From NCBI GenBank assembly GCA_021234155.1, contig JAJEKV010000002.1, positions 17,608,041 to 17,672,040 of the forward strand: a stretch of DNA of 64,000 nucleotides. Reading direction: 5' to 3'. The stretch's first letter is position 1, and every line of letters starts with the position of its first letter. The notes under the pieces are model-generated. The model made no database searches, was not told the origin of the DNA, and saw nothing but the letters and a program-made list of their open reading frames with translations. Positions 5,658 through 42,123 of this stretch are shown piece after piece. This DNA is from Isoetes taiwanensis. Taxonomy: Eukaryota > Streptophyta > Lycopodiopsida > Isoetales > Isoetaceae. The position numbers were made by a program, and so were the translations under genes.

Positions 5658-5688
5658 CACACTCACCCCGGTTTTTGGTCCACTGTTG
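5655..5688 (+). repeat. Left TSD (ACA) plus left 31-bp terminal inverted repeat
   Basis: ACA at 5,655-5,657 belongs to the LINE target. The terminal repeat is 5,658-5,688 and ends ...GGTCCACTGTTG. It pairs with 34,019-34,049 with five mismatches (element positions 5, 7, 14, 15 and 26). Confidence 0.75.
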
Positions 5689-5699
5689 AAAACATCAGT

Positions 5700-6400
5700 T
5701 TTGGTAGGTACATGTCCTGTTTTCAAAGAATCCTACATGTGGATTTGTGGAGGTATGGTTTTGTTCGATAATGGTGTTCTTTTTTCAGTGGACTAAAACA
5801 TCCACTGTTGTTTTGTAGTTTCTTCTATTGTGACATGTCATTTTATAATACAATCCACTGTAGGAAAGAATACTTAAATTTCTACATGTCTAATAATTCT
5901 ATTGTCACATGTCTTTATAGATGTAGGAAAGAATATTTGATTCTCTACATGTCCTATACTTCCATTCACATGTCTTTATAGTAGTAGGACAGAGTACTTT
6001 ATTTGCTAAGGCATTGTAGGAAAGAATACATGAATTACGACATGTATAATACTTCTATTGTCACATGTCTTTATAGAAGTAGGAAAGAATACTTGATTCT
6101 CTACATGTCGTATGCTTCCATGTCACATGTCTTTATAGTAGTAGGACAGAGTACTTTATTTGCTAAGGCATTGTAGGAAAGAATACATGAATTACGACAC
6201 GTGTAATACTTCTATTGTCACATGTCTTTATAGAAGTAGGAAAGATTACTTGATTCTCTACATGTCCTATCCTTCCATATCACGGGTCTTTATAGTGGTA
6301 GGACAAAGTACTTGATTTGCTACATGTGCATGATTTGCTGCACGTGCACGATCACATGTCCTTATACTAGTATTCCATGTAAGACAAGTTACTTCAACTA
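5700..6400. repeat. Left subterminal repeats with fifteen ACATGT palindromes
   Basis: ACATGT occurs fifteen times between 5,710 and 6,359, mostly as TACATGTCC or CACATGTCTTTATAG. Part of the zone is a ~159-bp tandem repeat: the block beginning GTAGTAGGACAGAGTAC starts at about 5,979 and again at about 6,138, with a decayed third copy near 6,296. Dense short repeats just inside the TIR are the usual transposase-binding architecture of CACTA elements; that function is inferred here. Confidence 0.75.
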
Positions 6401-6419
6401 CTTCAATTACTTGACACCT

Positions 6420-6930
6420 ATTTTTGCATAACAAAACCATCAAGAATTTGATTTGTATTCCTTGAGGGAGTGCAGGACCGCTGCAACAAATCCCTAAGCA
6501 TTAATGTCATAGGACCACGCAAAATCCTAACAATATCCTAACATTTTGGATATTGTTAGAGAAAGACCATTAAACCACGCCTACATTTTTGCATAACAAA
6601 CCATTAAGAATTGTGAGATGTATTTTTTTATGGAGGATAGGACCATTGCAACAAATCCCCAAGCATTAAAATGGCAAGACCATGCAATATCCTAACATTA
6701 TTCCCCCATTTTGGATATCGTTAGTGGAACACCATTAAACTATTCCTACATCTTGGTATAATTTAGACCATTAAGAATTTGAGATGTAATTGTTTATGGG
6801 GAATAGGACCATTGCAACAAATCCCCAAGCATTATAAAATGGCAAGACTATGCAATATCCTAACATTATCCCCCCATTTTGGATATCATTAGTGGAACAC
6901 CATTAAACCATGCCTACATCTAGTTGGTAC
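6420..6930. repeat. ~170-bp tandem repeat, three copies
   Basis: Three diverged units share ATTTTGGATAT, ACACCATTAAAC and CCATTGCAACAAATCCCC-like blocks, with starts near 6,546, 6,712 and 6,885 and a partial copy before them. There is no coding potential. They lie between the subterminal zone and the 1.1-kb satellite. Confidence 0.8.
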
Positions 6931-7079
6931 TAAGGTTCGCTATAGACAATCCAATAGGTATCCACGTCATCCAATGGTTTTAATTGTATCTAATTTATCT
7001 TATCCAATGGTTCTTTCTAAGAATGCAATGGTTCTTTGAAAAACAAGATAACTTATTGCACTTAGACGATTTGCACTAA
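6931..7079. other. Spacer, nothing recognised
   Basis: Short AT-rich spacer between the 170-bp repeats and the first satellite unit. I see no feature in it. Confidence 0.5.
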
Positions 7080-7677
7080 GAACATATCAAACCGCAAAGT
7101 GTCCTGCAGTCGACCGTGTAGAAACCCAAGTGTTTTGTCGTTCGGGCAGTACAAAGGCTCCGGAATGGAGATTTGACTTCGCCATGTCATCCGAAACAGA
7201 GAAATTACCCTAGAGACCAAGTTACACGGTCATTTTTTGCAGCAAAAGAAGCACGAACCCTCTACATGGCAGTATTCTGCACCCTCCGCTAAGGCCAATT
7301 CACTACGAACGTGTTGGACATGAGCTACTTTGGCGCTTCCTGGAGCAGGGGTGGTCTTCTGCCCACGAAACTTGGTCTCCAGGGTAATGTCGATGTTTCG
7401 AGTCCGTTGGCAGAGTCAGATCACAGTTCCGGGGTGGGAGAGTTGCCCGTCCGTGGCCAAGGACCTTCCAGAGAGGACCTTTTGGGTCGAACTGCTTCTG
7501 GAAGGTTTTAGGGCTCCGTCTTCTGGCATCAACGCCCTCCCACTACCTCATGACATTATGCAAGCTCCTGGTCCAATCTGGCTAGGGTATGGGCTCCAAA
7601 ACGTAAACCCTGTGCCTTGCCAGGTTATTGTAGGGTTTACGTTATGGAGGTCGGGCTTTGGTCCGTTGCACTTGGGA
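7080..7677 (+). repeat. 1.1-kb satellite, left part of a unit cut by the Gypsy insertion
   Basis: It begins GAACATATCAAACCGCAAAG, exactly like the units starting at 21,564, 22,683 and later. It runs to CACTTGGGA, where the Gypsy LTR interrupts; the unit resumes at 21,015 with TGGGACATGGTCG. Open frames across it are not conserved between units, so I treat it as noncoding. Confidence 0.9.
7592..7652. repeat. Satellite palindrome, about 61 bp with ~20-bp arms
   Basis: The arm GGCTCCAAAACGTAAACCCT is answered by AGGGTTTACGTTATGGAGGTC after about 20 bases, so the sequence can fold into a hairpin or cruciform. Related palindromes occur at two positions in each full satellite unit. Confidence 0.85.
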
Positions 7678-9323
7678 TGTGACGCTCCCTGAACATATAC
7701 GACCCCCGGCCATATACATACGGGGATTTTCCCCTCCCATGGCGACCATATCGCCACGAGCAGGGCCCTCCGTCTATCCCGGGCCATCTATAGAGAGATG
7801 CCCGAGTGAAGGGCACGGAGGTGTCATTCGGCCCACGCCTTCAGTGGGACTCCTACGTTGCGGAAGCGTGAATACATGTTAGCACACAGCATAAATCATA
7901 TATAAATAACCACCACGAAGGGTGGCGCATCCATCCAAATACCGACGGCAAAGAATATGCATCTAAACTAAGAAAAACACCCCAAACCCCAGGTTCTACC
8001 CCGTTCGAGACTCGTGAGGATAGGCCCGGCGGCTCGGCCTCAAGAGATCAGTGACGAGAGATATAACTTTGGCGTTGGCTGGCATAGAACATCGGCTAGG
8101 GTTGTCCACTCCATCCGCCCCCTCCGTGCACACTTTGCGGATGGGTCGATTCACGCTATGGCCGCTATAGCCTTGGGGAGACGCAGCTCGAGGTATCACC
8201 CCACGAGCCTACTCGGGGTTCATGGCGCCCGGTCCGATGAGGCAGGTCGGGGGAAGCGTCCCCTTCCGGGATCACGGTGGTTCCATGGGTGAGCTAGAGA
8301 ATACGTGCGCATCGGCGACCCCGCATCCGTGCCGACTTACTCAACCCTAAATCTACTCAAAGTGCAAGATGCCCCATACGGGTCACACCACTATACCTGG
8401 GAGTGTCGGGACCCATACCCGGCCCCTCGTGACCGGCTATCAGGCCTAGCCCACTGTAGGAGTCTCAAGAGCCTTTTATGTTCGTGCAAGACCCCACCCC
8501 CACTTCACCACTGTGTCCCTTCTTTGGTGCTAAGCCAATCCATAGCATCTATGACCCGGTGGTCTCTTGTACACAGGCCGCATCAAATAGGATACTACAG
8601 GGCTCTATCTAGGAGCATACTACAATAAATGGCCTCAAAGGTCTCTACCCCCGTAATCCCCATCTGCGAGTGCTAACTACACGAGAGAACTACCAATCCA
8701 TCCTTTAAGCAAAACCATAATCAAAATATAAAGAGAACTTATGTTTACAACCAAGGGTTAGTTCCTACTACCAGAACACAGAGAGAGCAGAGAAGACAAC
8801 ACACAAGTGCCCAACTGGGGCGCTACCCTAGAATTCACAGCTATCCTAGCCACCCACCTGAGTTCTGGCTGGACCCGTTACCATTGGGTGCTTCCATCTC
8901 CTGGGTCTTGGGGTTCAGCTTCAGCTACACAGGTGAAAGTGCTTGGTATGGTGGCGCTCTGCTTGGTATGGTAGGCGCTCAGTTCCTGCTCCTTTTTGGA
9001 CGAATTTTGGGAGTCAATTGGGAATAGGGATCAGGTTGACAGCCTAATTTGGAAGTCCCCATGTTGGCCAATCGATTTGGGCCAGGTGGCGCCTTCCCAA
9101 AGCATTAATTAGCCTAAGTAATCCAATTAACCCTTAATTCCCTAATTATAGGTTATAATCTTTAATAATTAAATTAGCATAGCTAATTTAATCCCTTTTA
9201 AGACAACCCCCTAGGTTACAATACCCCATGGTGGCGTACCTTTAATGGGTGACGTGTCAGTATATTTATACGTATACCGTATAAATACGTTACGTATACC
9301 GTATAAATACGTGAAACGTCACA
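7678..9323 (-). repeat. Gypsy 3' LTR (1,646 bp)
   Basis: Matches 19,364-21,014 along its length, with scattered small indels and many differences at CG dinucleotides. On the minus strand it starts TGTGACGTTTCACG and ends CAGGGAGCGTCACA. Near its U3 start (9,264-9,312) a ~22-bp unit built on TATACGTATACCGTATAAA is tandemly duplicated; it may include promoter TATA signals but I cannot place a start site. Confidence 0.93.
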
Positions 9324-9340
9324 TTCTCCCCTCCTTAAAA
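9324..9340 (-). other. Gypsy polypurine tract
   Basis: On the minus strand the bases immediately upstream of the 3' LTR read TTTTAAGGAGGGGAGAA. A purine run in exactly this place primes plus-strand DNA synthesis in LTR retrotransposons. Confidence 0.85.
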
Positions 9341-9879
9341 ATAATGCTGTCCTCAGCATTGGGGTTAGTTGTTTGGAGACAGGTACTTAAAGAACTGAAT
9401 TAGAAAGCAATACATTGCCGTTAAAAATGTACATTAATACGTTGCTGAAATTATAGCATTTCGGATAGTAATACATTGAAGTTGAAAAAAACAAAGTGCA
9501 AGCACTAAAGTGCATTTTACAAACTTATTATCCGAGAAAGTTCGGGGACCGAAGTCCGATTTAACAACATCATAGACGACGAAAGTCACAGATGTAAACA
9601 AAGCGAATCCGAAAAGTTGGGTCATCAGCAACCCTCTATACATGGGCAGGTCACGAACTGCTCACTGGCCTGCACATGTCAATATATAAATATATATCAA
9701 TAATATAATTAGATTGTGGTTGAAGGGACCACCCCCTATAAATAAAGGAAAACTTATCTAGAAGGGAACCTATCATGACTATAGTTTGCAATTCATTGCG
9801 GCATAAGGAATGGTCAAATTTCCATTATAGCCGAGGACGAACATGATTGTCAACTACATGCCTTCGCAGCAATTTGTGG
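9341..9879 (-). other. Gypsy 3' untranslated interior
   Basis: AT-rich DNA between the end of pol and the polypurine tract. The short frames seen there are not recognisable, and I find no further gene. Confidence 0.5.
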
Positions 9880-10341
9880 TCATGTCAACATCAACAGTAG
9901 ACCACGTCCTAGAGAACAGAAGGTGATCTCATCATCGGTAGCTATTATTAAATACGATGCATCTACCCCTCTACTGCATGATTCGCGGCGAATCAAGCCT
10001 TCAAGCTTATCGTCGGGAGCGGGGTTGATCGCATCGTTGATGGTGCGGCCTTGAGACTCGCGCATGAAATCCGGATAGTGCTTCTCAAGGTCTATCTTCA
10101 TCACCCAAGTAGCATCTTCCACTGGTAAGTGCTTCCACTTAACCAAGTATTGCAACATTTGAGTCCTTCTGGTTTGTTTATAAGCTCGATCAAGAAGAGC
10201 TTCGGGCACTATCTCCAGTTGCTCCTCGGTCATTTCTAGGAGGGTTGGGGTATCCAAAACCTCCTCTGAATCAGGGGTGTGTTGTTTTAGAAGGCTCACG
10301 TGAAAGACCTTGTGGATCTTCAAGCGGGGTGGCAAATCCAA
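9880..10341 (-). pseudogene. Gypsy pol C-terminus: integrase tail plus chromodomain
   Basis: The frame opens with an integrase C-terminal signature, LPPRLKIHKVFHVSLLK. A chromodomain follows at about residues 45-95, with LQYLVKWKHLPVEDATWV and LEKHYPDF as its core strand and helix. The two tryptophans of the methyl-lysine cage (VKW and ATW) are present. Chromodomains at the integrase tail direct insertion to particular chromatin. The frame overlaps the preceding pol fragment by about 20 bases in another phase, so a frameshift separates them. Confidence 0.85.
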
Positions 10342-10754
10342 GCGATATGCCTGTTCTCCAACACGTTGATAATCTTGAGCGGCCCAGTATCGGGTGCCAA
10401 TTTCTTGCGATTACCAATCTTAAGCTTGGCCTGTTTTACTTTGATCTTAAGCCAAACTGATTCGCCCACCTGGAAGACTCGGGGGGTTCTGTGTTTATCC
10501 GCCACACTCTTCTGACGACTGCGTGCAGCTAATAAGTAACCACGAACTTCTTCAACCAAAGCTTGCATTTCGAGAAGGAGTTGTTGAGAAACCTCCACTT
10601 TAGAAACAGGGTTATGCCATGTGTCGGGAGTAAGGCATTGATAGCCGTAATTTATCATGAAGGGAGACATTCTGGAAGACTCATGTTTCATACTGTTATA
10701 GGCAAACTCTACTAGATAAATATAGTCAGCCCATTGTGATTGTTTACTCCACAC
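10320..10754 (-). pseudogene. Gypsy integrase C-terminal part
   Basis: Contains VEFAYNSMKHESSRMSPF and NYGYQC, the conserved end of the integrase core where target DNA is held. This is followed by a charged helix and the VGESVWLKIK element of the C-terminal SH3-like domain. It is separated by frameshifts from the core upstream and the chromodomain downstream. Confidence 0.85.
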
Positions 10755-11131
10755 ATAACCAGTAGCATATCCTCTATAATACGATTAGTGCGTTCTGTCG
10801 ACCATCCGTTTATGGATGATAGGCCGTACTCATAGCAAGCTTGGTCTGGATGGTGGCGAAGAAGTCTTTCCAGAATGCACTTACAAACTTGGGATCTCGG
10901 TCGGATACAATAACTCTTGGCATTCCGTGCAACCTGAAAATCTCCTTTGCAAATAGCGGTGGTGTCGAAGGCGGTGTCGGTAGTTCGACATGGCAAGAAA
11001 TGAGCCATTTTCGACAATTTGTCGACCACTACCATCAATGCATCATATCCCGCGAGAGTAATTGGAAGGCCCACAATGAAATCCATGGTGATCACTTCCC
11101 ACTTTGCGTTGGGCACATCCAAAGGTTGCAA
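10712..11131 (-). pseudogene. Gypsy integrase catalytic core, first part
   Basis: The stretch WEVITMDFIVGLP carries the first catalytic Asp, and [15 protein letters not shown] follows as expected of Gypsy integrases. After about residue 60 the frame departs from the family consensus, so the second Asp and the Glu are not in this frame. The enzyme would cut and join cDNA into the host chromosome, but this copy is broken. Confidence 0.85.
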
Positions 11132-11144
11132 CTCTCCCGAACTC

Positions 11145-11363
11145 TTAATTGCTCAGCCTTGGTTTGTTGACACACCCCATTAATCGCTTAATGTATCTAG
11201 CAATATCCTTCTTCATCGAAGGCCAAAAATAACTGGAGCGGATCTTAAAGTAAGTCTTCATAAAACCTGCATGTCCAGCTATAGGGCTGTTGTGTGTGTC
11301 ATGGAGAATCAGCCACGTACTCGAGGTTTGAGGTACACACAACTTATCCTTGTAATATAGCAA
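11145..11363 (-). pseudogene. Gypsy integrase N-terminal zinc-binding domain (defective)
   Basis: The segment HDTHNSPIAGHAGF supplies the His pair of the HHCC domain, followed by the usual YFWPSMKKDI. The closing CxxC is reduced to a single Cys (LMGCVN), so zinc binding is probably lost. It joins the end of the pol frame at 11,309 through a frameshift. Confidence 0.8.
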
Positions 11364-13600
11364 GTTGCCCTCTCTTTCTTTATCTCTGAACGGAAAGCTT
11401 CGCGTTCTTTGTCTGAGCGTGCTTCCTTATTCAAACTACCCCAAATATCACAGAATTCGGGATCTATGGCTAAGGTCTGTTCTATTTGCTTCCCAAACTC
11501 ACTGGTGAGCGTGGAGATTGCGTTACAATGGGTTCGGGTAATCAAAGGATGGCGTGATAACGCATCCGCAACCACATTGTGCTTCCCAGGCTTATACATA
11601 ATCTCGAAGTCATATTCCTCCATAAATTCCATCCACCTTCTCTGACGGAGATTGAGATTTGGCTGGGTGGATAAATAACGGAGACTCTGATGATCCGTAT
11701 CCAGCTGAAATCTTCTACCAAGAAGGTAGTGTCTCCAAATGCGCAGAGCGCGGATAACTGCTAACAATTCCTGATCATGGGTACGGTATCGCTGCTCCGT
11801 TTTATTCATTTTCTTTGAATCATAGGCAATAACCCTCCCCTCCTGCATTAGGACTCCACCGGTAGCAATCTTACTAGCATACGTTGCCACTAGCTTGTCC
11901 TTTTCAGGATCGGGCAAAGTGAGGACTGGTGCCGACGTTAAAGCATCTTTAAGCTTCTGGAAACCTACCTGGACTTTGGTTTTCCAATGTTCCATCCAAT
12001 CCTTCACCTTCTCGTGCTTTGTGAGATCAGTAAGAGGTGCGGCAATTGTAGCAAAATCTTTAACAAATTTCCGGTAATATCCTGCTAGTCCCAAGAAACT
12101 TCGGACTTCCGAGACATTACCCGGAATAGGCCAATCCCTTACTGCTTCTATCTTTGCTGGATCTGTAGCAATTCCCTCTGCTGAAATGATATGGCCCAAA
12201 TAATCGACCTCTGGAGTGGCAAACTTGCACTTAGAGAACTTGGCAAAGAGCTGATGACGTCTGAGCTTTTGCAGGGCCAACCGAAGATGTTTCTCATGCT
12301 GCTCCAAAGTTTTACTATAGATGAGAATGTCGTCAAAGAAAATGACAACAAAATCATCCAAGTATTGTCGGAAGACATCATTCATTAATCGCATGAAAGT
12401 TGCAGGAGCATTAGTTAATCCAAAAGGCATAACGGTAAACTCATAATGCCCATATCTCGTGCGAAAAGCAGATTTATGGATGTCCTCCTCCTTTATCCTT
12501 ATCTGATGGTATCCGGAGCGTAAATCAATCTTTGAGAAATATTTGGCCCCTTGCAACTGGTCCATTAGATCATCTGCCCTAGGCAAAGCATACCGATTCT
12601 TGATGGTATGCTTATTGAGCTGCCTATAATCAATACACATCCTCAAGGAGCCATCCTTTTTCTTAACAAAAGGATAGGGCGTAAAAGGCGAAACACTAGG
12701 TCGAATGAAACCTAGGTTTAGTAACTTCTGAAGTTGCTTCTTAAGCTCTGCCAACTCTGGGGGACTCATACGGTACGGGGCCTTACTGGTAGGCTTAGTA
12801 CCTGGTTCTAGAGCGATCTCACATTCTACCCCTCTAAAAGGAGGAAGCTTCTGAATCTCATCTGGAAAAAGATCGCTAAATTCTCGGAGAAGGTTGGCAA
12901 TCCCTTCCGGTAAGGTGTCAATTACTTGCTTCTGCTTAACATCTGACTCAATAGAAGCAAGTCTAATGATGCAAAGGAGCTTTCCCTTGCGTAACGCTTT
13001 TTCTAACTGCGTGATAGACATAGACTGCATAATAGGGTTGAATGGATCACCTTTTATAGTTACGCGAGTTCCGTTAGCGGCGTTGAAGGTAACCTCTCGT
13101 TTCTCGCAGTCTATATTGGCCTTTGCAGCTGCCAAAAATTCCATCCCAACAATAAGATCATATTTGCCAATGTCCATTAACTCGGCACCCAATGCAACTG
13201 GTGCACCTGGCAGCTGCATCTTAAGGTTAATGCGGCGGCCATGAGTGTGTCTGATCTTGCCACTGGCTAACGTGACTGGCTTTGGTCGGGATCTGAACGT
13301 TTCAAGCTGCAATACCTGGGCCATTCTAGGAGAAGCAAAATTATGTGTACTACCCGTATCCATCAAAATTATGAAAGGCTTACTGCCTACTTGGCCTATG
13401 GTGGAAATAACAGAAGGCTGGTTTTCAGCGTTTCCAGTTTCAATGGCTGCAAGAATATGAGACGCACCGTGAATGTACTCGGGAGCCTCGTCCTCGACAG
13501 GTGGTGTGGACTCAAGGTCATCCCAATCAAGATCGGCCATGGCCAGTTGGGCAGTCTGCGTGACATAAGGACAGTTCTGCATAAAGTGGCCGGGTCGCAT
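11309..13600 (-). CDS. Gypsy pol: protease, reverse transcriptase, RNase H (763 residues, partial)
   Basis: The frame continues directly from the gag zinc knuckle, so the first Met (13,600) is internal. Protease is marked by [10 protein letters not shown] (Asp81). RT spans about residues 270-470, with [16 protein letters not shown], the [11 protein letters not shown] box, MPFGLTNAP and the catalytic FFDDILIYS (421-429); most Gypsy enzymes have L or V where this has the second F. RNase H covers about 565-690, ending in VVADALSR. Its first catalytic Asp, normally in a TDAS motif, is Tyr here (VATYAS, residue 574), while Glu611 and later Asp residues remain. RNase H activity is therefore doubtful. 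The frame runs past the RNase H end toward the integrase before it closes. Confidence 0.93.
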
Positions 13601-14760
13601 ACACCTGTAGCATGCCTTATCTCGGCGGAGCTGTTCTCGAGCCTCTTTAGGAATAGGCGTAAAGGTTAGAACTTCCTTGCCGACATTATTACGCTTATCA
13701 GCGTCTTTGAAGGTGACTCTCTTTTCGGGCGCGCCCCGAAAGTGTTTTGTTGAGAGGGTCCCGGACTGGGTGAACGGCCCTTGTAAGGGGTATACGGGCG
13801 CTGGCTGGGAGTAACGATCTTGGGACGTTGGTAATGGCGGCTTGGCGTATCCTCTTCAAGGCTCAATGCCTTAGCCTCGGCCTCATAGCCCGACTTGGGG
13901 TCTATGGCCTTAACCATTCGTTTAATGGAGGGGCCAACCCTTCAATGTAGCCCTCCCGCCCTCTTCTCATTCATACCTGGTACATATAGCCTCGGCGCAT
14001 GAACTCATCGGTGTAGGCTTGTACCGACATTCCCTTCGCTCTAGCCTATAGAAGGTGCGGATCTGTTGGCATTTGTGCGCCACGAGGCACATAATGCGAC
14101 TTAAAAGGCTTTGGCAAACTTTAGAAGTTGCATCCGCTCCTATCAAATGCTTGGCTCTAGCATAGCCCTTCCACCAAATACGGGCAGCTCCTGTAAGGTT
14201 TGTGGTGGCAACCTTTCTGTATCCTTTTTAGGTCATGCCATAGGATTTTCCAAATTCCTTCATCTCGTCGAGCGAGGACTACGCATTCAGCCCCCCTCTA
14301 GATTTTCCATCAAATTGAGCCAATTTCCTATTCTTCCATATCTTTGGTTATGGCGGTATCAACTGCTTTTTCGGTACTCCTTATCCCGAGCGATGCGCAT
14401 GGCCACCGGATGACATAGACGAGTCGGAGGACTCAGGAAGTCGCCATCGAGAAGATGTTTGTCCTTAGAGGAACCTCGATGACGTTTGTGACGGTGCCTC
14501 TTGATGCGGGGTCGCGGGGAGGCTGGATTCGGTAGAGAAGGTTCTTTGTGGTGGGGACTTGGCGGTGCGGAGGTAACTCCGGTCCATCCTCCCGGCATCT
14601 TGCCGCGGTGGGTTGGTATTCAGCACATAAGTCCGCAACTCAACTAGTTGCCTTTTCATCGGCGGGAGTTCACGCTTTCGGGGAGTTAACCATTTGGCAT
14701 TCGAGGGTATGCGCGCGGCGGCGTTGCACCGTCTATATTGAGCAGAAGAAGATTATAAGC
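13571..14760 (-). pseudogene. Gypsy gag, decayed, with CCHC zinc knuckle
   Basis: The knuckle [14 protein letters not shown] (C-x2-C-x4-H-x4-C) lies at 13,571-13,612 in the pol frame. Upstream, pieces of gag appear in different phases: a Pro/Ser/Lys-rich linker at 13,666-13,917, a capsid-like piece ARAKGMSVQAYTDEFMRRG near 13,990-14,050, and an N-terminal stretch at 14,359-14,659 starting MKRQLVELR. Gag packages the RNA in virus-like particles. At least three frameshifts are needed to link these pieces. Confidence 0.75.
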
Positions 14761-15024
14761 AGAGTTACATCAAGTCTCACAAGAAGAGAACAACATGAAG
14801 TCCCATAACAAGATCATTTGTGTAGTATCGAAGAAAGAGTGAATACGAAAAGACAAGAGAAAAGCTTTCGATTAAAAGTCAAAACACTATTACATTGGAA
14901 AAAGTTCACTCTGAAAGTGGTTATCACTCAAAGTTATATAGTACAGATGTGGATTTCTTTTATACATGGGCCACTTCTCTAATCACACTGAAACATAGCA
15001 ACACAAAACTGAAGAGGTCCTGGC

Positions 15025-15484
15025 CTAGGGGTTCGCGAAAGGGTACATAATGGAGTAGCGAACACTTTCACGTACAGCTCTGATGAGCTTGTAACGTGCC
15101 CAGGCTTGGACGATCACAGGCTGATAATCCCATGTGGGGCTGATAATGAGAAGGTTGAAAAGCCTCCTTAATGCATAGAATAATTGCCATAGGTGGTCGT
15201 TGGAATCCTCGAAAGCTTCGTGCCTGGACATACTCCAATAGTCCCATGTGCGGCGAAGGGTCTGCTTTAGGTCGTCGAAGGCGCGTTCTCGGAGGATATT
15301 AACTACCTCCATACCCTTGTCAGGATCATAAGGCTCTTGCGGCTCTTCGGGTTCATCCATCTCTTCGACACCCTCTCGTTCCGGGTATTCTCCATACCTC
15401 TGGCCATAATCTTGTTCAGGAGGCCCCTGGTCGTCCATTCTTATCAGATCGGTGATCCTGTCCTCGTACTCCTCAAGTGTTTCT
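15025..15484 (-). CDS. Extra Gypsy ORF P3, function unknown (about 150 residues)
   Basis: The frame ends at 15,025 with ...SIMYPFANP. Its Met is at 15,438 but the frame is open upstream to a possible splice acceptor (CTTGCAG before 15,484), giving EETLEEYEDRITDLIRMDD. The N-terminus is very acidic (MDEPEEPQEP) and the C-terminal half is a Trp/Arg-rich helix (RRTWDYWSMSRHEAFED). I recognise no family. It lies between gag and ORF P2 on the element's strand and may be a separate protein or the last exon of a spliced P2/P3 product. Confidence 0.45.
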
Positions 15485-15730
15485 TCTGCAAGACGACAGG
15501 AATAAATATATATACATTGAACAATTTCCTTCTACTCCAACTTTAAGGAAGATAATTAATCATTAAAAGGAGAAGACAATTCAATGGCTTTTAACAGTGC
15601 AAGGAACATAAGAAGATATCCTGAATATATATAAAATTGAAACAGTACATAGATTTTAGTGTTGGCCCACTAGAGGTAATACCAATCAAAATTAACAAAA
15701 TTTCATACGATGACCCAATGAAACCTAAAA

Positions 15731-19362: not shown

Positions 19363-19363
19363 C

Positions 19364-21014: not shown

Positions 21015-24000
21015 TGGGACATGGTCGAGTAGCTGCGTTTGAAAACACGAGGCAGTAGAAATTGCAAGAATGGGGTTTGGATTTATTCTCCTCCTAGTTT
21101 TACAATTAAAAGTGTAGAGCGCCTTATGCAGTAGCAAAATTGTTTGGGGTCACTCGGATTGGCGAATAGATCGAAACTCTGTTATTTCAGTTCTCATGGC
21201 TCCCCATGCATGTTTAGAAATGGTCCACCTAGTTATCAAAGAAGTCAACCACGTTTTGGCCTCCAAAACGTAAACCCTGTGCGTTGCTAGGTTATTGTAG
21301 GGTTTACGTTATGGAGGTCTAGTTTTATTCAGTTGCACTTGAGACATGGTCGAGAAGCTGCAGTTGAAAACAAGAAGCAATAGAAACTCACGAAATGGGG
21401 TTTGTTGGATTTACCGAGGCAGGCTTTCCTACCAGTGCTCCTCCGGGAGGGCAAATGCCAATGCCTCCCTTCCCGGAGCCCGGTTTCCCTATCCGACCGT
21501 TGAATTCTCCATTCAAGTAACTTGCTTCGAGCGGGTTCAAACAAATTCAAAATCTGTCCGGGAGAACATATCAAACCGCAAAGTGTCTTGCAGTCGACCG
21601 TGTAGAAACCCAAGTGTTTTGTCGTTCGGGCAGTACAAAGGCTCCGGAATGGAGATTTGACTTTGCCATGTCGTCCGAAACAGCGAAATTACCCTAGAGA
21701 CCAAGTTACGGTCATTTTTTTGCAGCAAAAAAGCGAACCCTCTACATGGCGGTATTATGCACCCTCCGCTAAGGCCAATTCACTACTGAGCGTGTTGGAC
21801 ATGAGCTACTTTGGCGCTTCTGGGGCGGGGGTGGTTTTACGCCCGCGAAACTTGGTCTCGAGTAATGTCGATGTTTCGAAGTCTGTTGGCGAGTCAAATC
21901 CGCGATTCGAGGTGGGAGAGTTGCCCGTCCGGTGGCCAAGGACCTTCGGAGAGGACCTTTTGGGTTGGCGCTTACGGAAGGTTTTAGGGCTCCGATCTTA
22001 CGGCATCAACGCCCTCCCACTACCTCATGACATTATGCAAGCTCTGGTCCAATCGGCTGGGGTATGGGCTCCAAAGCGTAAACCCATTTCCCTGGCGGGG
22101 TTATTGTAGGGTTTACGTTATGGAGGTCGGGCTTTGGTCCGTTGCACTTGGGACATGGTCGGCAGTGCGTTTGAAAAAACGAGGCGTGGAAATTGCAAGA
22201 ATGGGGTTTGGATTTATTCTCCTCCTAGTTTTACAATTAAAAGTGTAGAAGCCTTATGTAGTAGCAAAATTGTTTGGGGTCACTTTCGGATTGGCGAATA
22301 GATCGAAACTCTGTTATTTCAGTTCTCATGGCTCCCCATGCATGTTTAGAAATGGTCCACCTAGTTATCAAAGAAGTTGACCACGTTTTGGCCTCCAAAA
22401 GCGTAAACCCTGTCGTTGCTAGGTTATTGTAGGGTTTACGTTATGGAGGTCTAGTTTTATTCGATTGCACTTGAGACATGGTCGAGAAGCTGCGATTGAA
22501 AATAAACAATAAGCTGGCGAAATGGGGTTTGGATTTCCGAGGCGGGCTTTCCTACGGTGCTCCTGCGGGAGGGCAAATGCCAATGCCTCCCTTCCGGAGC
22601 CGGTTTCCCTATCCGGCCCGTTGAATTCTCCATTCAAGTAACTTGCTTGGCGGGTTCAAACAAATTCAAGATCTGTCCAGGAGAACATATCAAACCGCAA
22701 AGTGTCTTGCAGTCGACCGTGTAGAAACCCAAGTGTTTTGTCGTTCGGGCAGTACAAAGGCTCCGGAATGGAGATTTGACTTCGCCATGTCATCCGAAAC
22801 AGAGAAATTACCCTAGAGACCAAGTTACGGTCATTTTTGCAGCAAAGAAGCACGAACCCTCTACATGGCGGTATCGCACCCTCGCTAAGGCCAATTCACT
22901 CTGACGTGTTGGACATGAGCTACTTTGGGCTTCACGGGGCGGGGGGGTGGTCTTACGCCCACGAAACTTGGTCTCGAGTAATGTCGATGTTTTGAGTCCG
23001 TTGGCAGAGTCAAATCACAGTTCCGAGGTGGGAGAGTTGCCCGTCCGTGGCCAAGGACCTTCTAGAGAGGACCTTTTGGGTCGAACTGCTTCTGGAAGGT
23101 TTTAGGGCTCCGTCTTCTGGCATCAACGCCCTCCCACTACCTCATGACATTATGCAAGCTCCTGGTCCAATCTGGCTAGGGTATGGGCTCAAAAGCGTAA
23201 ACCCTGTGCCTTGCCAGGTTATTGTAGGGTTTACGTTATGGAGGTCGGGCTTTGGTCCGTTGCACTTGGGACATGGTCGGAAGTTTGCGTTTGAAAACAC
23301 GAGGCGATAGAAATTGCAAGAATGGGGTTTGGATTTATTCTCCTCCTAGTTTTACAATTAAAAGTGTAGAGCCTTATCAAGTAGCAAAATTTTTTTGGGG
23401 TCACTTTCGGATTGGCGAATAGATCGAAACTCTGTTATTTCAGTTCTCATGGCTCCCCATGCATGTTTAGAAATGGTCCACCTAGTTATCAAAGAAAGTA
23501 AACCACGTTTTGGCCTCCAAAACGTAAACCCTGTGCGTTGCTAGGTTATTGTAGGGTTTACGTTATGGAAATCTAGTTTTATTAGGTTGCACTTGAGACA
23601 TGGTCGAGAAGGCTGCGATTGAAAAAAACAAGCAATAAACCGGCGAAATGGGGTTTGGATTTACCGAAGTGAGGCTTTCCTACGGTGCTCCTCGAGGGGA
23701 AATACCAATGCCTTCCTTCGGGCCCGGTTTCCCTATCCGGCCGTTGAATTCTCCATTCAAGTAACTTGCTTCGGCGAGGTTCAAACAAATTCAAGATCTG
23801 TCGAGGAGAACATATCAAACCGCCAAAGTGTCCTGCAGTCGACCGTGTAGAAACCCAAGTGTTTTGTCGTTCGGGCAGTACAAAGGCTCCGGAATGGAGA
23901 TTTGACTTCGCCATGTCGTCCGAAACAGCAAAATTACCCTAGAAACCAAGTTACACGGCCATTTTTTGCAGCAAAAGAAGCACGAACCCTCTACATGGCA

Positions 24001-27000
24001 ATATTCTGCACCCTCCGCTAAGGCCAATTCACTACGAACGTGTTGGACATGAGCTACTTTGGCACTTCCTGGAGCAGGGGTGGTCTTCTGCCCACGAAAC
24101 TTGGTCTCCGGTGAACCCTGTGCCTTGCCAGGTTATTGTAGGGTTTACGTTATGGAGGTCGGGCTTTGGTCCGTTGCACTTGGGACATGGTCGGCATTTT
24201 GCGTTTGAAAACAGGCAAAGATAGAAATTGCAAGAATGGGATTTGGATTTATTCTCCTCCTAGTTTTACAATTAAAAGTGTAGAGCGCCTTATGCAGTAG
24301 CAAAATTGTTTGGTATCACTCGGATTGGCGAATAGATCGAAACTCTGTTATTTCAGTTCTCATGGCTCCCCATACATGTTTAGAAATGGTCCACCTAGTT
24401 ATCAAAGAAGTCAACCACGTTTTGGCCTCCAAAACGTAAACCCTGTGCGTTGCTAGGTTATTGTAGGGTTTACGTTATGGAGGTCTAGTTTTATTCAGTT
24501 GCACTTGAAACATGGTCGAGAAGCTGCAGTTGAAAACAAGAAGCAATAGAAACTCACGAAATGGGGTTTGGATTTACCGAGGCAGGCTTTCCTACCAGTG
24601 CTCCTCCGGGAGGGCAAATGCCAATGCCTCCCTTCCCGGAGCCCGGTTTCCCTATCCGACCGTTGAATTCTCCATTCAAGTAACTTGCTTCGAGCGGGTT
24701 CAAACAAATTCAAGATCTGTCAGGAGAACATATCAAACCGCCAAAGTGTCTTGCGGTCGGAGGTGTAGAAACCCAAGTGTTTTGTCGTTCGAGGCGGTAC
24801 AAAGGCTCGGGAATGGAGATTTGACTTTGCCATGTCGTCGAAACAGTGAAATTACCCTAGAGACCAAGTTACCGCGGTCATTTTTTGCAGCAAAAGAAGC
24901 CACGAACCCTCTACATGGCGGTGATTACGCACCCTCCGCTAAGGCCAATTCACTCTGAGCGTGTTGGACATGAGCTACTTTGGCGCTTCTGGAGGCGGGG
25001 GTAGTCTTACGCCCACGAAACTTGGTCTCGAGAGTAATGTCGATGTTTTGAGTCCGTTGGCGAGAGTCAAATCGATTCACGAGGTGGGAGAGTTGCCCGT
25101 CCGTGGCCAAGGACCTTCAGAGAGGACCTTTTGGGTCGAAGCGCTTACGGAAGGTTTTAGGGCTCGAATCTTAAAGCGTCAACGCCCTCCCACTACCTCA
25201 TGACATTATGCAAGCTCTGGTCCAATCGGCTGGGGTATGGGCTCCAAAGCGTAAACCACGTTCCCTGCCGGGGTTATTGTAGGGTTTCACGTTATGGAGG
25301 TCGGGCTTTGGTCCGTTGCACTTGGGACATGGTCGGCATTTTGCGTGAAAAAACAGGCAGTAGAAATTGCAAGAATGGGGTTTGGATTTATTCTCCTCCT
25401 AGTTTTACAATTAAAAGTGTAGAAGCGCCTTATCGCATTAGCAAAATTGTTTGGGGTCACTCGGATTGGCGAATAGATCGAAACTCTGTTATTTCAGTTC
25501 TCATGGCTCCCCATGCATGTTTAGAAATGGTCCACCTAGTTATCAAAGAAGTCCACCACGTTTTGGCCTCAAAAGCGTAAACCCTATCGTTGCTAGGTTA
25601 TTGTAGGGTTTACGTTATGGAGGTCTAGTTTTATTCAGTTGCACTTGAGACATGGTCGGAGAAGGCTGCGATTGAAAAAAACAAGCAATAGAAACTCACG
25701 AAATGGGGTTTGGATTTACCGAGGCGGGGCTTTCCTACCGGTGCTCCTCCGGGAGGGCAAATGCCAATATGTCTCCCTTCGGAGCCGGTTTCCCTATCCG
25801 GCCGTTGAATTCTCCATTCAAGTAACTTGCTTCGGCGGGTTCAAACAAAATCAAGATCTGTAGGAGAACATATCAAACCGCCAAAGTGTCTTCGGTCGGC
25901 CAGGTGTAGAAACCCAAGTGTTTTGTCGTCGGGCAAGTACAAAGGCTCGGGAATGGAGATTTGACTTAGCCATGTCGTGCGAAGCAGTGAAATTACCCTA
26001 GAGACCAAGTTACGGTCATTTTTGCAGCAAAAGAAGCGGGGAACCCTCTACATGGCGGTGATTACGCACCCCTCGCTAAAGGCCAATTCACTCTGAGCGT
26101 GTTGGACATGAGCTACTTTGGCTTCCCCGGGCAGGGGTGGTCTTACGCCCACGAAACTTGGTCTCGGGGTAATGTCGATGTTTTGAAATGCGTTAACGAG
26201 AGTCAAATCACGATTCGAGGTGGGAGAGTTGCCCGTCCAGTGGCCAAGGACCTTCGAGAGAGGACCTTTTGGGTCGAACGTTTTACGGAAAGTTTTAGGG
26301 CTCAAGATCTTACGGCGTCAACGCCCTCCCACTACCTCATGACATTGTGCAAGATCACGGTCCAATCGACTAGGGTATGGCCTCCAAAGCGTAAACCTTG
26401 TGCGTTGCTAGGTTATTGTAGGGTTTACGTTATGGAGGTCAAGTTTTATTCGATTGCACTTGAGACATGGTTGAGAAGGCTGCGGTTGAAAACAAGAAGC
26501 AATAAGCGGCGAAATGGGGTTTGGATTTACCGAGGGGGCTTTCCTACGGTGCTCCTCAGGGGAGGGCAAATGCCAAATAATGCCTTCCGGGCCGGTTTCC
26601 CTATCCGACCGTTGAATTCTCCATTCAAGTAACTTGCTTGAGCGAGGTTCAAAAAATTCAAGATCTATCCGGGAGAACATATCAAACCGCAAAGTGTCCT
26701 ACAATCGAAAGTGTAGAAACCTAAGTGTTTTGTCGTTCGAGGCATTACAAAGGCTCAGGAATGGGGATTTTGGCCGCCATATCGTCCAAAACGGTGAAAT
26801 TACCCTAGGGACCAAGTTACCACGGTCATTTTTGCAGCAAAAGAAAACACGAACCCTCTACATGGCGATTATCGTCGCACCCTCGCTAAGGCCAATTCAC
26901 TACTGAGCGTGTTGGGCATGAGCTACTTTGGCGCTTCTGGAGGCGGGGGTGGTCTTAGCCCATAAAAATTGGTCTCGGGGTGATGTCGATGTTTCGAGTT

Positions 27001-27815
27001 AAGTTGGCGGTCGGATCCACAGTTCGGGGTGGGAGATTGCCCGTCCGTGGCCGGGGACCTTCGAGAGGACATTTTGGGTGAAACCGCTACGGAAGGTTTT
27101 AGGGCTCAATCTTCCGGCCTCAATGCCCTCCCACTACCTCATGACATTGTGCAAGATCCTGGTCTAATCTGGCTGGGGTATAGCCTCCAAAAGCGTAAAC
27201 CCATTGCCTTGCCACGTTATTGTAGGGTTTACGTTATGGAGGTCGGGCTTTGGTCCGTTGCACTTGGGACATGGTCGGACATTTGCGTTTGAAAACAGGC
27301 GCAGAAAGCGCGGAATGGGGTTTGGATTTAATCTCCTCCTAGTTTTGCAATTAAAAGTCTAGAGCGCCTTATGCAGTAGCAAAATTGTTTGGGATCACTC
27401 GGGTTGGCCAATAGATCGAAACTCTGTTATTTCAGTTCTCATGGCTCCCCATGCATGTTTAGAAATGGTCCACCTAGTTATCAAAGAAGTCGACCACGTT
27501 TTGGCCTCCAAAACGTAAACCCTGTGTGTTGCTAGGTTATTGTAGGGTTTACGTTATGGAGGTCGAGTTTTATTCAGTTGCACTTGAGACATGGTCGAGA
27601 AGCTACAGTTGAAAACAAGAAGAAGAAATGGGGTTTGGATTTACCCTCCTCCCAGTGTCGCAATTAGAAGTCAAGAACACATTATGTAGTAGCAAATTTT
27701 TTTGGAATGATTCGGGATCGCCAATAGATCCAAACTCTGTTATTTCAGTTGCCATGGCTCCGCATGCATGTTTGAAAAAGGCACACCAGGTCCCAAGTGC
27801 AACTGACCACGTTTT
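21015..27815 (+). repeat. Tandem array of a ~1.1-kb satellite, about six units
   Basis: Unit starts (GAACATATCAAACC) are at 21,564, 22,683, 23,808, 24,726, 25,866 and 26,675. Spacings are 1,119, 1,125, 918, 1,140 and 809 bp. A full unit has about 510 bp, palindrome P1, a ~290-bp block, palindrome P2, and a ~270-bp block. The sequences following P1 and P2 are related (both TTATGGAGGTC...GTTGCACTTG(g/a)GACATGGTCG), so the unit is itself an ancient duplication. The 918-bp unit lacks part of the first block (junction near 24,110). The 809-bp unit has P1 fused to P2 (near 26,400). Frames are not conserved between units. Confidence 0.92.
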
Positions 27816-27877
27816 GGCCTCCATAACGTAAACCCTACAATAACCTGGCAAGGCACAGGGTTTACGTTTTGGAGGCC
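27816..27877. repeat. 62-bp palindrome at the inversion point of the satellite array
   Basis: Arms GGCCTCCATAACGTAAACCC(T) and AGGGTTTACGTTTTGGAGGCC pair at 20 of 21 positions around a 20-base loop. Left of it the satellite reads forward; right of it the satellite reads in reverse complement, so orientation flips at this hairpin. Confidence 0.88.
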
Positions 27878-28540
27878 ATACCCTAGCCAGATTGGACCAG
27901 GATCTTGCATAATGTCATGAGGTAGTGGGAGGGCGTTGACGCGAAGAGGCGAGCCCTAAAACCTTCGAAGCAGATTCGACCCAAAATGTCCTCTACGGAA
28001 GGCCCACGCCACGACGCGGCGCAACTCCCACCCCGAATCGCGTGATCCCGACTCACGCCAGCGAACTTCGAAACATCGACATTACCCTGGAGACCAAGTT
28101 TCGTGGGCAGAAGACCACCCCTGCTCCAGGAAGCGCCAAAGTAGCTCATGTCCAACACGTTCGTAGTGAATTGGCCTTAGCGGAGGGTGCAGAATACTGC
28201 CATGTAGAGGGTTCGTGCTTCTTTTGCTGCAAAAAATGACCATGTAACTTGGTCCCTAGGGTAATTTCGTTGTTTCGGACGACATGGCGAAGTCAAATCT
28301 CCATTCCGGAGCCTTTGTACTGCCCAAACGACAAAGCACGTGGCTTTCTACATGGTCGACTGCAGGACACTTTGCGGTTTGATATGTTTTCTCGGATAGA
28401 TCTTGAATTTTTGAACCAGCTTGAGGCGGGGTTACTTGAAAAGTGGATTCAAGGTCGGATGGGAAACCGGGCTCGGGAAGGAGGCATTGGCATTTGCCCT
28501 TCCTGGAGGAGCACTAGTAGGAAAGCCGCGCCTCGGTAAC
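27878..28540 (-). repeat. Inverted satellite segment
   Basis: This is the reverse complement of the first block of the satellite, from the CCATACCCTAGCCAGATTGG end through TTTGCGGTTTGATATGTTTTC to the mirrored GGAGGGCAAATGCC-like block. It ends where the 19-bp minisatellite begins. Confidence 0.88.
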
Positions 28541-30757: not shown

Positions 30758-30784
30758 CAATGTCATCACGTAGAGGGAGCGTGT

Positions 30785-31802: not shown

Positions 31803-31995
31803 GCGAAGCGCATGCAAATCCGGCAATGTCCCTTTGGGTTCCCCAAACCTAAGCTCTTCCCCCTTTCTTGAAGCGCATGCAAATCCGGCAATGTCCCTTT
31901 GGGTTCCCAAACCTAAGCTCTTCCCCCTTTCTTGAAGCGTATGCAAATCCGGCAATGTCCCTTTGGTTCCCAAACTAAGCTCTTCCCCTTTCGTT
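31803..31995. repeat. ~66-bp tandem repeat, three copies
   Basis: Units start near 31,805, 31,870 and 31,935 and share GAAGCG(c/t)ATGCAAATCCGG and CCAAACCTAAGCTCTTCC. The third copy has small deletions. The first copy may lie in an exon of the gene-like region that follows. Confidence 0.85.
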
Positions 31996-32620
31996 TTTTA
32001 CTGTTAAAATCTGTCAATCTACTGGCTGCATGGCATTGCCGTCATTTCCCTCCCTCTTCGATTGGGCTCTGATGATTTTTTGGTCATGGGTGCATGCTTG
32101 AGCGGAAGTCTGGCTGAGCGGGACGTGCTTGGCAGATTGGAACACTGTGCGATGCTTCCCCAGGTGCGTCTATCCTGGTATTGGATTCTAGTTTGCCTGC
32201 CTATCATAGGTCGATCTATATAGAGCTGAGTTACACACTTCGGGCATGTAGGAAATGTTTACCTGGCTGTTATAGATTGATTCATTTAAACAATACAGAA
32301 CTACTCAACTCGGGCCTGTCCAGCAATCAAAATATTTTTTATGCTTGAATTTGTTTCCTCTCTGAACGGGTTGACAGTACAAATCTGGTAAACTATAATG
32401 CTAATAGAAGTATATTGCTCTATTTAGCTACATAGATTTGTTTAGCCTACTACTAATTTGTTAAGTCTTTTCCAGCAAGCTAAGTCCAGCAATTTTAGAC
32501 GATGGAAGTGAAGGCAAGTAATCTTGCTGGATTTTGCATTTGCGTTTCTGCCATTCTTCTTGCTCTACTCCTTACTTCTGTTAACTTTGTTTGCAGAACT
32601 AGCCCTTTTGCTCTTCAATC

Positions 32621-32899
32621 GATCTGAACTGAAGAAATGGATGGGCAAGAAATTAAAAAATGATGCTCCTAAATTTGAGGAGCTAAAGCAGCCTAAGAAA
32701 ACATCAGAGGTACATGTGGCATTTGTTTTTTTTCTCCAATTTGAGATTTCAATCATGTTCTCATCATAATTTCTTTGTCAGGTTACAGAGAAGAAAAATG
32801 TTGCAGCAGTACTATTGCATTGCCGCACAGATCGTGTAAAATCAAATGCTCACAAGCAACTGGAGAAACAATCCATTTCAATTTCGTGCAGTTTGTAAT
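32621..32899 (+). pseudogene. Possible captured host-gene fragment: two exons and an intron
   Basis: A Lys-rich stretch, MGKKLKNDAPKFEELKQPKK followed by TSE, ends at a plausible donor (GAG|GTACAT, about 32,710). A T-rich tract and acceptor (TTTGTCAG|GTTACAGAG, about 32,783) follow. Joining them keeps the phase and continues VTEKKNVAAVLLHCRTDRVK to a stop at about 32,899. Further upstream, TTTGCAG before 32,600 could be another acceptor. I do not recognise the protein. CACTA elements commonly carry host-gene fragments of this kind, but expression and origin are unproven. Confidence 0.3.
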
Positions 32900-33386
32900 A
32901 TAATAGGCAAACCATTAAGATTTGAAAACTTACTAAGGCACTGCAATATAGAATTTCAATGTTTTGAAAAATGCATCCATTGGCATTGTTATATTGACTC
33001 AGTATTCTGAACTTTCTCACAAAACAATAATCCACTTAAAATCCAAAAGATATTATTAACAAGCATCCTATAATCAATGATAGAATTTTAAAATTTGGAT
33101 TACAAATAAATAACTTGTTTGGGTTCGATTCCCAAAAGGCTTTTTTATTTTAAATTAAGCAATTCATGATATATTGATTTTTGGTACATATTAGTTTTTT
33201 TTAATGTGCCACGTGTCGATATTTCATTGATAAAAATAATGAGTTTTTATTTAAAAAGCATGCACGTGTTAATATTTTATTGGTTAAAAAACACTTCAAA
33301 AGCAACACCTCGCTTTTCTATGTGTGATAATAATGTTTTTTACATGTCCTTATTTTTAAAAAACAATAGTTGGTAGCATTAACAAC
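32900..33386. other. AT-rich DNA, no gene
   Basis: There are no open frames of note. GGGTTCGATTCCC at 33,120 resembles a tRNA B box and is followed by a T run, but no A box or cloverleaf is present. Confidence 0.5.
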
Positions 33387-33745
33387 AATAGCTAGATTTA
33401 AATAGCGCATGTGGTATTTTATTAAACAACATGTAATTTTTTTTAAAAAGCATCGATTTTGATGTTGTCATATTATTTTTAACCTGTAGTAATATCTAAA
33501 TCTACAATAGCTAGATTTAAATAGCGCATGTGGTATTTTATTAAACAACATGTAATTTTTTTTAAAAACCATCGATTTTGATGTTGTAATATTATTTTTA
33601 ACCTGTAGTAATATCTAAATCTACAATAGCTAGATTTAAATAGCGCATGTGGTATTTTATTAAACAACATGTAATTTTTTTTTTAAAAACCATCGATTTT
33701 GATGTTGTAATATTATTTTTAACCTGTAGTAATATCTAAATCTAC
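33387..33745. repeat. 119-bp tandem repeat, three copies
   Basis: AATAGCTAGATTTAAATAGC begins at 33,387, 33,506 and 33,625, an exact 119-bp period, and copies 2 and 3 differ by only a few bases. The array is AT-rich and lies just inside the right subterminal zone of the giant element. Confidence 0.92.
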
Positions 33746-34018
33746 GCATGTTATTTAGAAGACAAACAACGTATAGCTCCTTCAAAAACTACAGTCAAGA
33801 AAAAAACCACACGTTGAAAAAGTTCGGTAAAAACAACACTGAAAAAAAGGACACGTTGACAAAAAAACAAAAAAGTGTCAGAAAAACCACCGTGGGATTT
33901 TTTTTGCCAAAAAACCACTGTCTCTTTGTGCAAATCCGGATAAACAGGCCACGTGGACTTTTGGGGCCATTTTGGTGTTGTTTTTGGCATAAAACAACAC
34001 TTCCGTACAAGTAAAAAA
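33746..34018 (-). repeat. Right subterminal repeats of the giant element
   Basis: Read toward the interior (minus strand), about seven copies of a degenerate motif like AGTGTTGTTTTT or CAGTGGTTTTTT occur at intervals of about 35-40 bp, beginning in the TIR itself (CCACAGTTGTTTTTT). Related forms occur just inside the left TIR (CCACTGTTGTTTTG near 5,805). Confidence 0.6.
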
Positions 34019-34052
34019 CAACTGTGGACCAAAATTCGGGGTCATTGTGACA
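34019..34052 (-). repeat. Right 31-bp terminal inverted repeat plus TSD (ACA)
   Basis: The TIR is 34,019-34,049, ending ...GGGGTCATTGTG. ACA at 34,050-34,052 repeats the ACA at 5,655. The LINE-A reading frame resumes immediately after it. Confidence 0.75.

Positions 34053-40455: not shown

Positions 40456-42123
<1,668 letters not shown>

Follow-up and report, generated by a model that had tools for sequence, protein, structure and literature searches.

A chromodomain Ty3/gypsy retrotransposon family carrying a histone H3 fusion gene, found nested in a CACTA-like transposon of Isoetes taiwanensis

Introduction

Giant viruses encode their own core histones, as whole sets or as doublets. Ogre/Tat elements, which are plant long terminal repeat (LTR) retrotransposons outside the chromoviruses, have an open reading frame (ORF) upstream of gag that is not known to include a histone domain. 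Here we describe a Ty3/gypsy LTR retrotransposon of the lycopod Isoetes taiwanensis that carries a histone H3 gene. It is similar to the giant viruses in being a mobile genome that would make its own core histone, and to the Ogre/Tat elements in having an extra ORF before gag, but it differs from the viral systems in that a retrotransposon carries a single H3, near H3.3, joined to a coiled coil. The element lies in a stretch of 64,000 nucleotides (assembly GCA_021234155.1, contig JAJEKV010000002.1, positions 17,608,041 to 17,672,040, forward strand), referred to as the window, whose own numbering is used below. It is nested in a terminal inverted repeat (TIR) transposon, which in turn splits a long interspersed nuclear element (LINE).

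Captured domains are known from other Ty3/gypsy elements. CHROMO, PMD, AIR1, AlkB, G-patch, KOW, ArgoL2 and B3 are named in the part of PMC9289625 available to us, with no histones in that part. The orchid elements with an AlkB-like m6A demethylase described there are similar to the nested element in that a host-derived regulatory domain has been retained as an additional ORF through many replication cycles. The nested element differs in that the protein captured is itself the chromatin substrate and, of the parts measured, shows the strongest constraint. With the plant chromoviruses, as far as the available part of PMC6317226 describes them, it shares the LTRs, the TGGTATCAGAGC primer site, a Ty3-capsid gag, the order protease, reverse transcriptase (RT), RNase H and integrase, and a C-terminal chromodomain; it differs by two to three extra ORFs between the 5′ LTR and gag, one of which is the H3 fusion. 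A full-text literature search (titles and abstract openings, few subscription papers, no bioRxiv) found no transposon-borne histone gene. A term search of the available parts of PMC9289625, PMC6317226, PMC7264820, PMC6431247 and PMC3350952 found no histone gene named in a transposon, and the word histone was absent from the main text of PMC7264820 as it could be searched. Thus captured domains in plant Ty3/gypsy elements are known, and histone H3 among them is new within the literature searched, as far as these searches go.

Results

Structure of the nested retrotransposon

Our analysis revealed a structurally complete Ty3/gypsy LTR retrotransposon of 13,337 bp on the minus strand of the window. 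Its features are as follows.

7673 to 7677 (other copy 21015 to 21019), no strand: target site duplication (TSD) TGGGA, from comparison of the flanks
7678 to 21014, minus strand: nested Ty3/gypsy LTR retrotransposon, 13,337 bp, supported by two further copies in the family (13.1 and 13.2 kb)
19364 to 21014, minus strand: 5′ LTR, 1651 bp, at a Kimura two-parameter distance of 0.072 from the 3′ LTR
7678 to 9323, minus strand: 3′ LTR, 1646 bp, from the LTR comparison
19351 to 19362, minus strand: primer binding site (PBS) TGGTATCAGAGC, just inside the 5′ LTR, which we take to be of the initiator-tRNA-Met type
9324 to 9336, minus strand: polypurine tract, from the sequence
17417 to 18628, minus strand: ORF1, with N-domain, coiled coil and C-terminal histone H3 (Pfam Histone 8e-41; PDB H3.3 4e-51)
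15731 to 17135, minus strand: ORF2, family unassigned, frameshifted in the window copy (family copies; homologue P0001)
15025 to 15531, minus strand: ORF3, about 150–170 codons (family copies)
13855 to 14790, minus strand: gag, frameshifted in the window copy (Ty3_capsid 7e-16 in the relative L024)
9880 to 13855, minus strand: protease, RT, RNase H and integrase region with C-terminal chromodomain, the integrase part frameshifted (Pfam; Chromo 1.6e-8)

The LTRs begin with TG and end with CA, and with the 5 bp TSD, the PBS and the polypurine tract they have the form usual for Ty3/gypsy elements. The three full copies found measure 13.1–13.3 kb, and all three have 5 bp TSDs (TGGGA, AAAGT and GGAAA). 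In the window copy, Pfam searches matched RVT_1 (5.8e-39), RT_RNaseH (2.8e-30) and RVP_2 (1.5e-12), and the integrase end matched Chromo and the SH3 domain of Tf2-type integrases (2.5e-10). No Pfam family matched the integrase core of this broken copy. By its structure and domain order, the nested element is classified as a chromodomain Ty3/gypsy retrotransposon. The protein-like content of the nested stretch consists of the retrotransposon's own genes, one of them being the histone H3 gene, and the extra ORFs lie between the 5′ LTR and gag. We regard the anatomy of the nested elements and of the histone fusion as practically certain.

The histone H3 fusion and its companion ORFs

ORF1 is open over 403 codons in the window copy, where a stop cuts off its start. 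Its C-terminus is a histone H3 domain, and H3.3 was the best PDB match for both the window ORF1 and that of locus L054. The H3 fold and a near-complete conserved core are present, and six element sequences are 86–89% identical in the core to an H3.3 chain. H87 was found in 40 of 41 loci (F in L062), and L90 likewise in 40 of 41 (a stop in one); these residues we take to be marks of H3.3.

Upstream of the H3 domain lies a conserved domain of about 145 residues without known family (the N-domain), followed by a predicted long coiled coil. One homologue search with the N-domain returned none among 1924 candidates; in a second, with 3885 matches, the best query coverage among the 120 listed was 51%. 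No match to ORF1 was found in phage records.

ORF2 has about 470 codons, and more than 500 codons are open from stop to stop in L019, L024, L030, L037, L053 and L055. Neither a PDB profile search nor a search of viral contigs matched it. One relative, P0001, was found among the scored candidates of a database of 5.8 billion proteins; it is an unnamed 471-residue protein on a 2953 bp ENA contig, 40% identical over 99%. It is thus likely that ORF2 occurs in another organism besides the source of the window. No ORF3 was seen in L052–L055, which have a YSCKLSS segment where other copies read YSCRLAEE; this segment is perhaps near a splice acceptor.

Copies of the family and a single capture of H3

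A genome search with the ORF1 protein gave 109 matches, at the best 103 loci scored out of 18,202 first-look candidates, and many of these loci match over the whole protein length. With canonical H3 as query, the best 150 of 9103 candidates were scored: 15 loci matched at 97–99% identity over the full length, and the other 135 fell sharply to 72–87%. Twelve of these 135 coincide with the 103 ORF1 loci, so there are at least 226 non-canonical H3-domain loci (103 + 135 − 12), most of them unread; the copy counts are lower bounds.

We examined 40 loci, namely the best 30 (L009–L038, the window's included) and 10 chosen mostly from low ranks (L047–L056); L062 was a 41st. The H3 domain and the N-domain were each present in 40 of the 40, and ORF2 stands beside the histone ORF in 39 (40 of 41 with L062). 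A PBS within one edit was found in 24 of the 30 loci reaching far enough upstream, and its distance from ORF1 is the same in 22 of these; gag was found in 9 of the 10 loci whose sequence reaches it. ORF3 was present in 3 of the 10 low-identity loci searched. The other two full-length LTR elements, with TSDs AAAGT and GGAAA, carry the H3 ORF at the same place.

In L062, ORF1 is 42% identical overall to the window type, the H3 part 90% and the adjoining ORF2 46–47%. Such divergence indicates that the retrotransposon family is old and diverse. Between lineages, the H3 core remains 85–99% identical while the whole of ORF1 drops to 42%. L062 comes from a subfamily of the histone fusion with 420 codons; frames this long occur in seven loci, one of which was read.

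The element's H3 departs from H3.3 at recurrent positions, for which we assume H3 residue numbering. Among the 41 loci, T107A was found in 41, I124L in 40, G102A in 37 and D77E in 35, and E105 is replaced in all 41 (by G in 34, S in 6 and R in 1). Since T107A is present in every locus and other H3 changes are shared, the data point to one probable capture of H3, with later changes. We also considered that five H3 changes might be common to all lineages; this was rejected, as only T107A and the replacement of E105 occur in 41 of 41, the latter by three residues.

H3 retrocopies are common, and the H3 ORFs might be host genes or processed H3 pseudogenes that lie by chance in repeats. The host's canonical H3 frames are also uninterrupted, and the canonical-H3 search list includes short, unexamined frames, both of which would fit this explanation. 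In the loci read, however, the H3 ORF stands at the same place, after the PBS and before ORF2 and gag; moreover, the N-domain is present in every examined locus, the H3 changes are shared across the 41 loci, and the divergence parallels that of the element's other genes. This explanation runs against the data for the 41 loci read, and we consider it highly improbable.

The H3 tail and the K9-like site

Hosts silence transposons through marks on the tails of histone H3. The element's H3 has no free tail with K4, K9, K27 and K36; the tail is fused to the coiled coil and has about 25 extra residues. In early-branching copies the stretch before the core is TARKSG, which resembles H3 residues 6–12 minus one residue. 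From this the series passes to TPRKSG and then, nearest the window, mostly to TPQRSG, TPSKSG, TPNKSG or TPHRSG. The stretch was readable in 35 of the 40 loci: TPRKSG in 11, TPQRSG in 7, TARKSG in 5, TPSKSG in 4, MPRKSG in 2, and TPNKSG, TPHRSG, TPRKSD, TPLKSG, TVRKSG and TVHRLG in one each. It therefore departs from TARKSG in 30 of 35. In a 21-row tree, in which some forks are weak, TPQRSG falls on non-neighbouring branches, and L049 (TVHRLG) is the outgroup, on a long branch and unsurely placed. The idea that the tail is altogether without K9 was dropped once the TARKSG series was seen.

Selective constraint

The ratio of nonsynonymous to synonymous substitution rates (dN/dS) of the H3 core was 0.024 in the 30 top-scoring loci, 0.056 in the 8 usable of the 10 low-identity loci and 0.037 in all 38 usable of the 40. 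When the same base changes were dealt at random, as a control, the values were about 0.64 (0.59–0.68). For 17 ORF1s taken from the 30 fetched (the other 13, not open over 400 codons to the end, were left out), dN/dS was 0.030 for H3, 0.086 for the N-domain, 0.17 for the coil and 0.31 for the 5′ extension. Elsewhere in the element, the values were 0.13 for ORF2 (9 sequences), 0.068 for ORF3 (7), 0.148 for gag (11), 0.156 for RT (3) and 0.39 for the RNase H–integrase region (3 sequences, noisy). Of all the parts measured, the H3 core is under the strongest constraint.

Possible function of the histone fusion

Because the related copies read keep the histone part nearly unchanged, it is likely that the element uses its self-made histone to shape its own chromatin. 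ORF1 would be made from the element's RNA, pair with host H4 and be deposited on the element's chromatin through host H3.3 pathways. Its tail, which in many copies is without the standard ARKS site, would then leave that chromatin without a silencing mark, and the N-domain would recruit ORF2 or Gag. We put forward only tentatively this mechanism, in which ORF1 and H4 form element nucleosomes whose tail is unreadable to the K9 methylation machinery. Equally speculative is the wider history, in which one ancient capture of H3.3 would have given an element-owned variant, a dedicated partner in ORF2 and silencing-resistant nucleosomes, with the H3K9 site erased stepwise in the copies nearest the window. 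The chances appear evenly divided for the explanation as a whole, that is, a TIR insertion in a LINE followed by a nested retrotransposon whose H3 fusion is predicted to enter nucleosomes and limit silencing. Its observed basis is the anatomy, the copy numbers, the constraint and the tail changes.

A number of points weigh against this explanation. Stops or frameshifts disrupt several genes of the window copy, while individual genes are open in other copies; a stop lies inside 6 of the 38 H3 cores, and some of the at least 226 loci may be host variants or pseudogenes. The host residue is kept at D77 in 5 and at G102 in 2 of the 41 loci. As for the tail, lysine persists at the K9-like position of the TPRKSG, TPSKSG and TPNKSG copies, and the loss of the site is neither total nor confined to the window's side, since the outgroup L049 reads TVHRLG and the distant L062 DRKSG. 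The K27-like lysine is kept in aligned copies, which an anti-marking role would not predict, and TARKSG was likened to the H3 tail by eye, the HMMER alignment starting at about H3 residue 18. The loci were found through similarity to ORF1, which favours conserved copies and is only partly corrected by the low-identity set; the dS of that set is 1.25, near saturation, and the three sets leave out pairs for which dN or dS was undefined (32 of 703, 12 of 435 and 3 of 28). The structure model of ORF1 is weak outside the coil, and that of ORF2 is useless, with a predicted local distance difference test score of 35.8.

The main rival is that ORF1 serves as a targeting tether. It would enter nucleosomes at chosen sites, e.g. 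those of H3.3 exchange, where the N-domain and coil would draw the pre-integration complex, in place of or beside the integrase chromodomain. Purifying selection on the N-domain (dN/dS 0.09–0.16) is as expected of a partner-binding module, and the element has a chromodomain as well. However, three full copies are too few to show a site preference, and tethering leaves the changes of the ARKS motif unexplained. We consider this role rather unlikely, though it deserves to be weighed.

The position of the H3 fusion upstream of gag in the same element, with a largely kept histone core, would also suit a packing role, in which the fusion wraps the element's DNA copy or RNA in the virus-like particle, as a nucleocapsid-like protein forming nucleosome-like particles. 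Against this, a core that nowhere departs far from H3.3 suggests that the protein pairs with host H4 in the nucleus, and Gag has a CCHC knuckle of its own (a weak Pfam match, 0.017). Packing thus appears improbable. We also rank lower the idea that a mark carried by the self-made histone is read by the integrase chromodomain: on inspection by eye, this domain is without cage residues one and three, as in the type II chromodomains described in the available part of PMC6317226.

The TIR transposon and the split LINE

The interval 5658–34049 (28,392 bp) is a single TIR element inserted in a LINE frame. Its features are as follows.

4745 to 5657, minus strand: LINE reverse transcriptase ORF, 3′ part of the split frame (RVT_1 3e-23; in-frame join with 34053–34429)
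34053 to 34429, minus strand: LINE ORF, 5′ part of the split frame, from the joined frame
5655 to 5657, no strand: left TSD, ACA, from the flanking sequence
34050 to 34052, no strand: right TSD, ACA, from the flanking sequence
5658 to 34049, no strand: TIR transposon, 28,392 bp, CACTA-like, apparently non-autonomous (ends, TSD, family copies)
5658 to 5688, plus strand: left TIR (26 of 31 with the right TIR; start shared with 7 other fetched loci)
34019 to 34049, minus strand: right TIR; similar ends close the copies L005 and L008
5658 to 6500, no strand: left subterminal region, with 14 ACATGTC motifs and a 157 bp tandem repeat (repeat and motif counts)
33385 to 33745, no strand: right subterminal 119 bp repeat, 3 copies (repeat analysis)
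7047 to 7677, no strand: family-resident tandem repeat left of the nested element (sister-copy comparison)
21015 to 28412, no strand: family-resident tandem (satellite-like) repeats of about 1.1 kb right of the nested element, also in L005 and L008
28576 to 30747, no strand: 19 bp minisatellite, about 115 copies, present in sister copies

The first-pass annotation of this DNA, made from the letters alone, had proposed that a LINE was cut here with duplication of ACA, and that removal of the interval and one ACA restores its frame. Both proposals were borne out. The two TIRs are identical at 26 of 31 positions, whereas in 200,000 draws of two random 31-mers from the window the highest score was 20 matches, and 26 was never reached. 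When the removal was recomputed, a single LINE frame resulted, stop-free across CCFVDFAKAF. No uninterrupted LINE copy was found for comparison. A left-end search of the genome, with the best 40 places scored out of 1623 first-look candidates, showed that the left boundary is a family end: all 8 fetched loci (the window and 7 others) start with CACACTCACCCCGGTTTTTGGTCCAC, and their flanks differ. Two further complete copies were identified, L005 of 10,628 bp with ACA duplicated and L008 of 6,752 bp with TTA duplicated, so there are smaller relatives, and 3 of 3 complete copies have an exact 3 bp duplication. The family ends, the TSDs and the restored LINE frame led us to reject an assembly error that fused unrelated LINE halves; for the same reasons it is very unlikely that the sequence was wrongly joined at 5.6 or 34.0 kb.

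In copies L004, L006 and L007, the 11.7 kb read did not include a matching right end. At position 7469 of L006 joined with L059, a second TIR left end lies in the same orientation, preceded by TCA and 6 kb inside the copy; the family may insert into itself. The left end of L007 falls in a long open frame of unassigned family (1022–1642, element strand), and this insertion may have disrupted a gene. To the right of L005, in L057 (12641–13249 of the joined 13.2 kb), an open frame matches Replitron_HUH (3.6e-8), which places a transposon of the rolling-circle type of this genome just outside the TIR right end.

As to its class, the element had been called CACTA-type. The CAC ends, the 3 bp duplication in all complete copies and the subterminal motif repeats at the left end agree with this, but the strict CACTA/CACTG start is absent, the ends reading CACAC (left) and CACAA (right). 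ACATGTC occurs 14 times in the left 843 bp, twice in the 26.8 kb interior, once in the right 750 bp and 10 times in the rest of the window. As in the first-pass annotation, no transposase was recognised: 7 interior frames outside the nested element matched no Pfam family at 0.01. The same 7 frames and one from L007 gave no sign at that threshold of the captured exons that had been thought possible in the TIR element proper. Transposase_21 is abundant in the genome, with at least 167 matches (best 150 of 2311 candidates scored), and had no matches in 14 control genomes. Among the matches listed, none lies in the window, L005 or L008, and the smallest distance to one of the 40 left ends is 153 kb; a CACTA-transposase partner sought near the family was thus not found among them within 150 kb of these ends. 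From the abundance of Transposase_21 and the lack of a listed match in the TIR copies checked, it is plausible that the element is moved in trans by such a partner. The interval is a real, apparently non-autonomous, CACTA-like transposon.

The first-pass annotation had placed the main interest in a giant transposon that carries and seeds satellites. The TIR family is indeed real and multicopy, with tandem repeats in all three complete copies: the 157 bp subterminal repeat, the satellite-like repeats and the 19 bp minisatellite also occur in the sister copies, so they are family cargo, and a separate insertion of the satellite-like repeats was rejected. Yet the size did not hold up. The element is giant because 13,337 of its 28,392 bp, almost half, are the later nested retrotransposon; the rest is about 15 kb, and the sister copies measure 6.75 and 10.6 kb. 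A link between CACTA elements and satellites, e.g. in Jozin, has also been described before, according to the available part of PMC7320549. That account of the locus is therefore unlikely. Compared with CACTA/EnSpm elements including Jozin, as that part of PMC7320549 presents them, the TIR element is similar in its CAC ends, 3 bp TSD, subterminal motifs and tandem-repeat cargo, and differs by its CACAC/CACAA ends and in that no transposase was recognised in the copies checked. It illustrates well a CACTA-like family that is nested and carries satellites, though it is ordinary in kind. From the nesting, the order of events would be the LINE first, then the TIR element, and then the retrotransposon, inserted into the tandem repeats of the TIR element.

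Other observations in the window

LINE copies abut long (AG)n microsatellites at 41965–42120, 43061–43206 and 50059–50186, and also in L004 with L058, as if the LINE family inserts into or ends in (AG)n repeats. The regions 37972–38814 and 52940–53404 share the protein segment ELFFSTIYSSIYxAAAKGLPSAGGLLWQxFPDEMDAAWNDGFQIF, which had no Pfam match at 0.01 and which we presume to be mannanase-like.

Discussion

With at least 226 loci, most of them unread, the H3-domain group seems to be larger than the canonical H3 group of 15; H3-based assays and the annotation of this genome would be affected by such an excess. If the proposed mechanism is true, an H3 of the element's own, with a core under strong purifying selection and an altered K9-like site, would be a direct counter-weapon against host silencing. 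The family would then offer a natural experiment to show which residues of H3 silencing depends on, and the conflict between transposon and host would be recorded in a histone tail.

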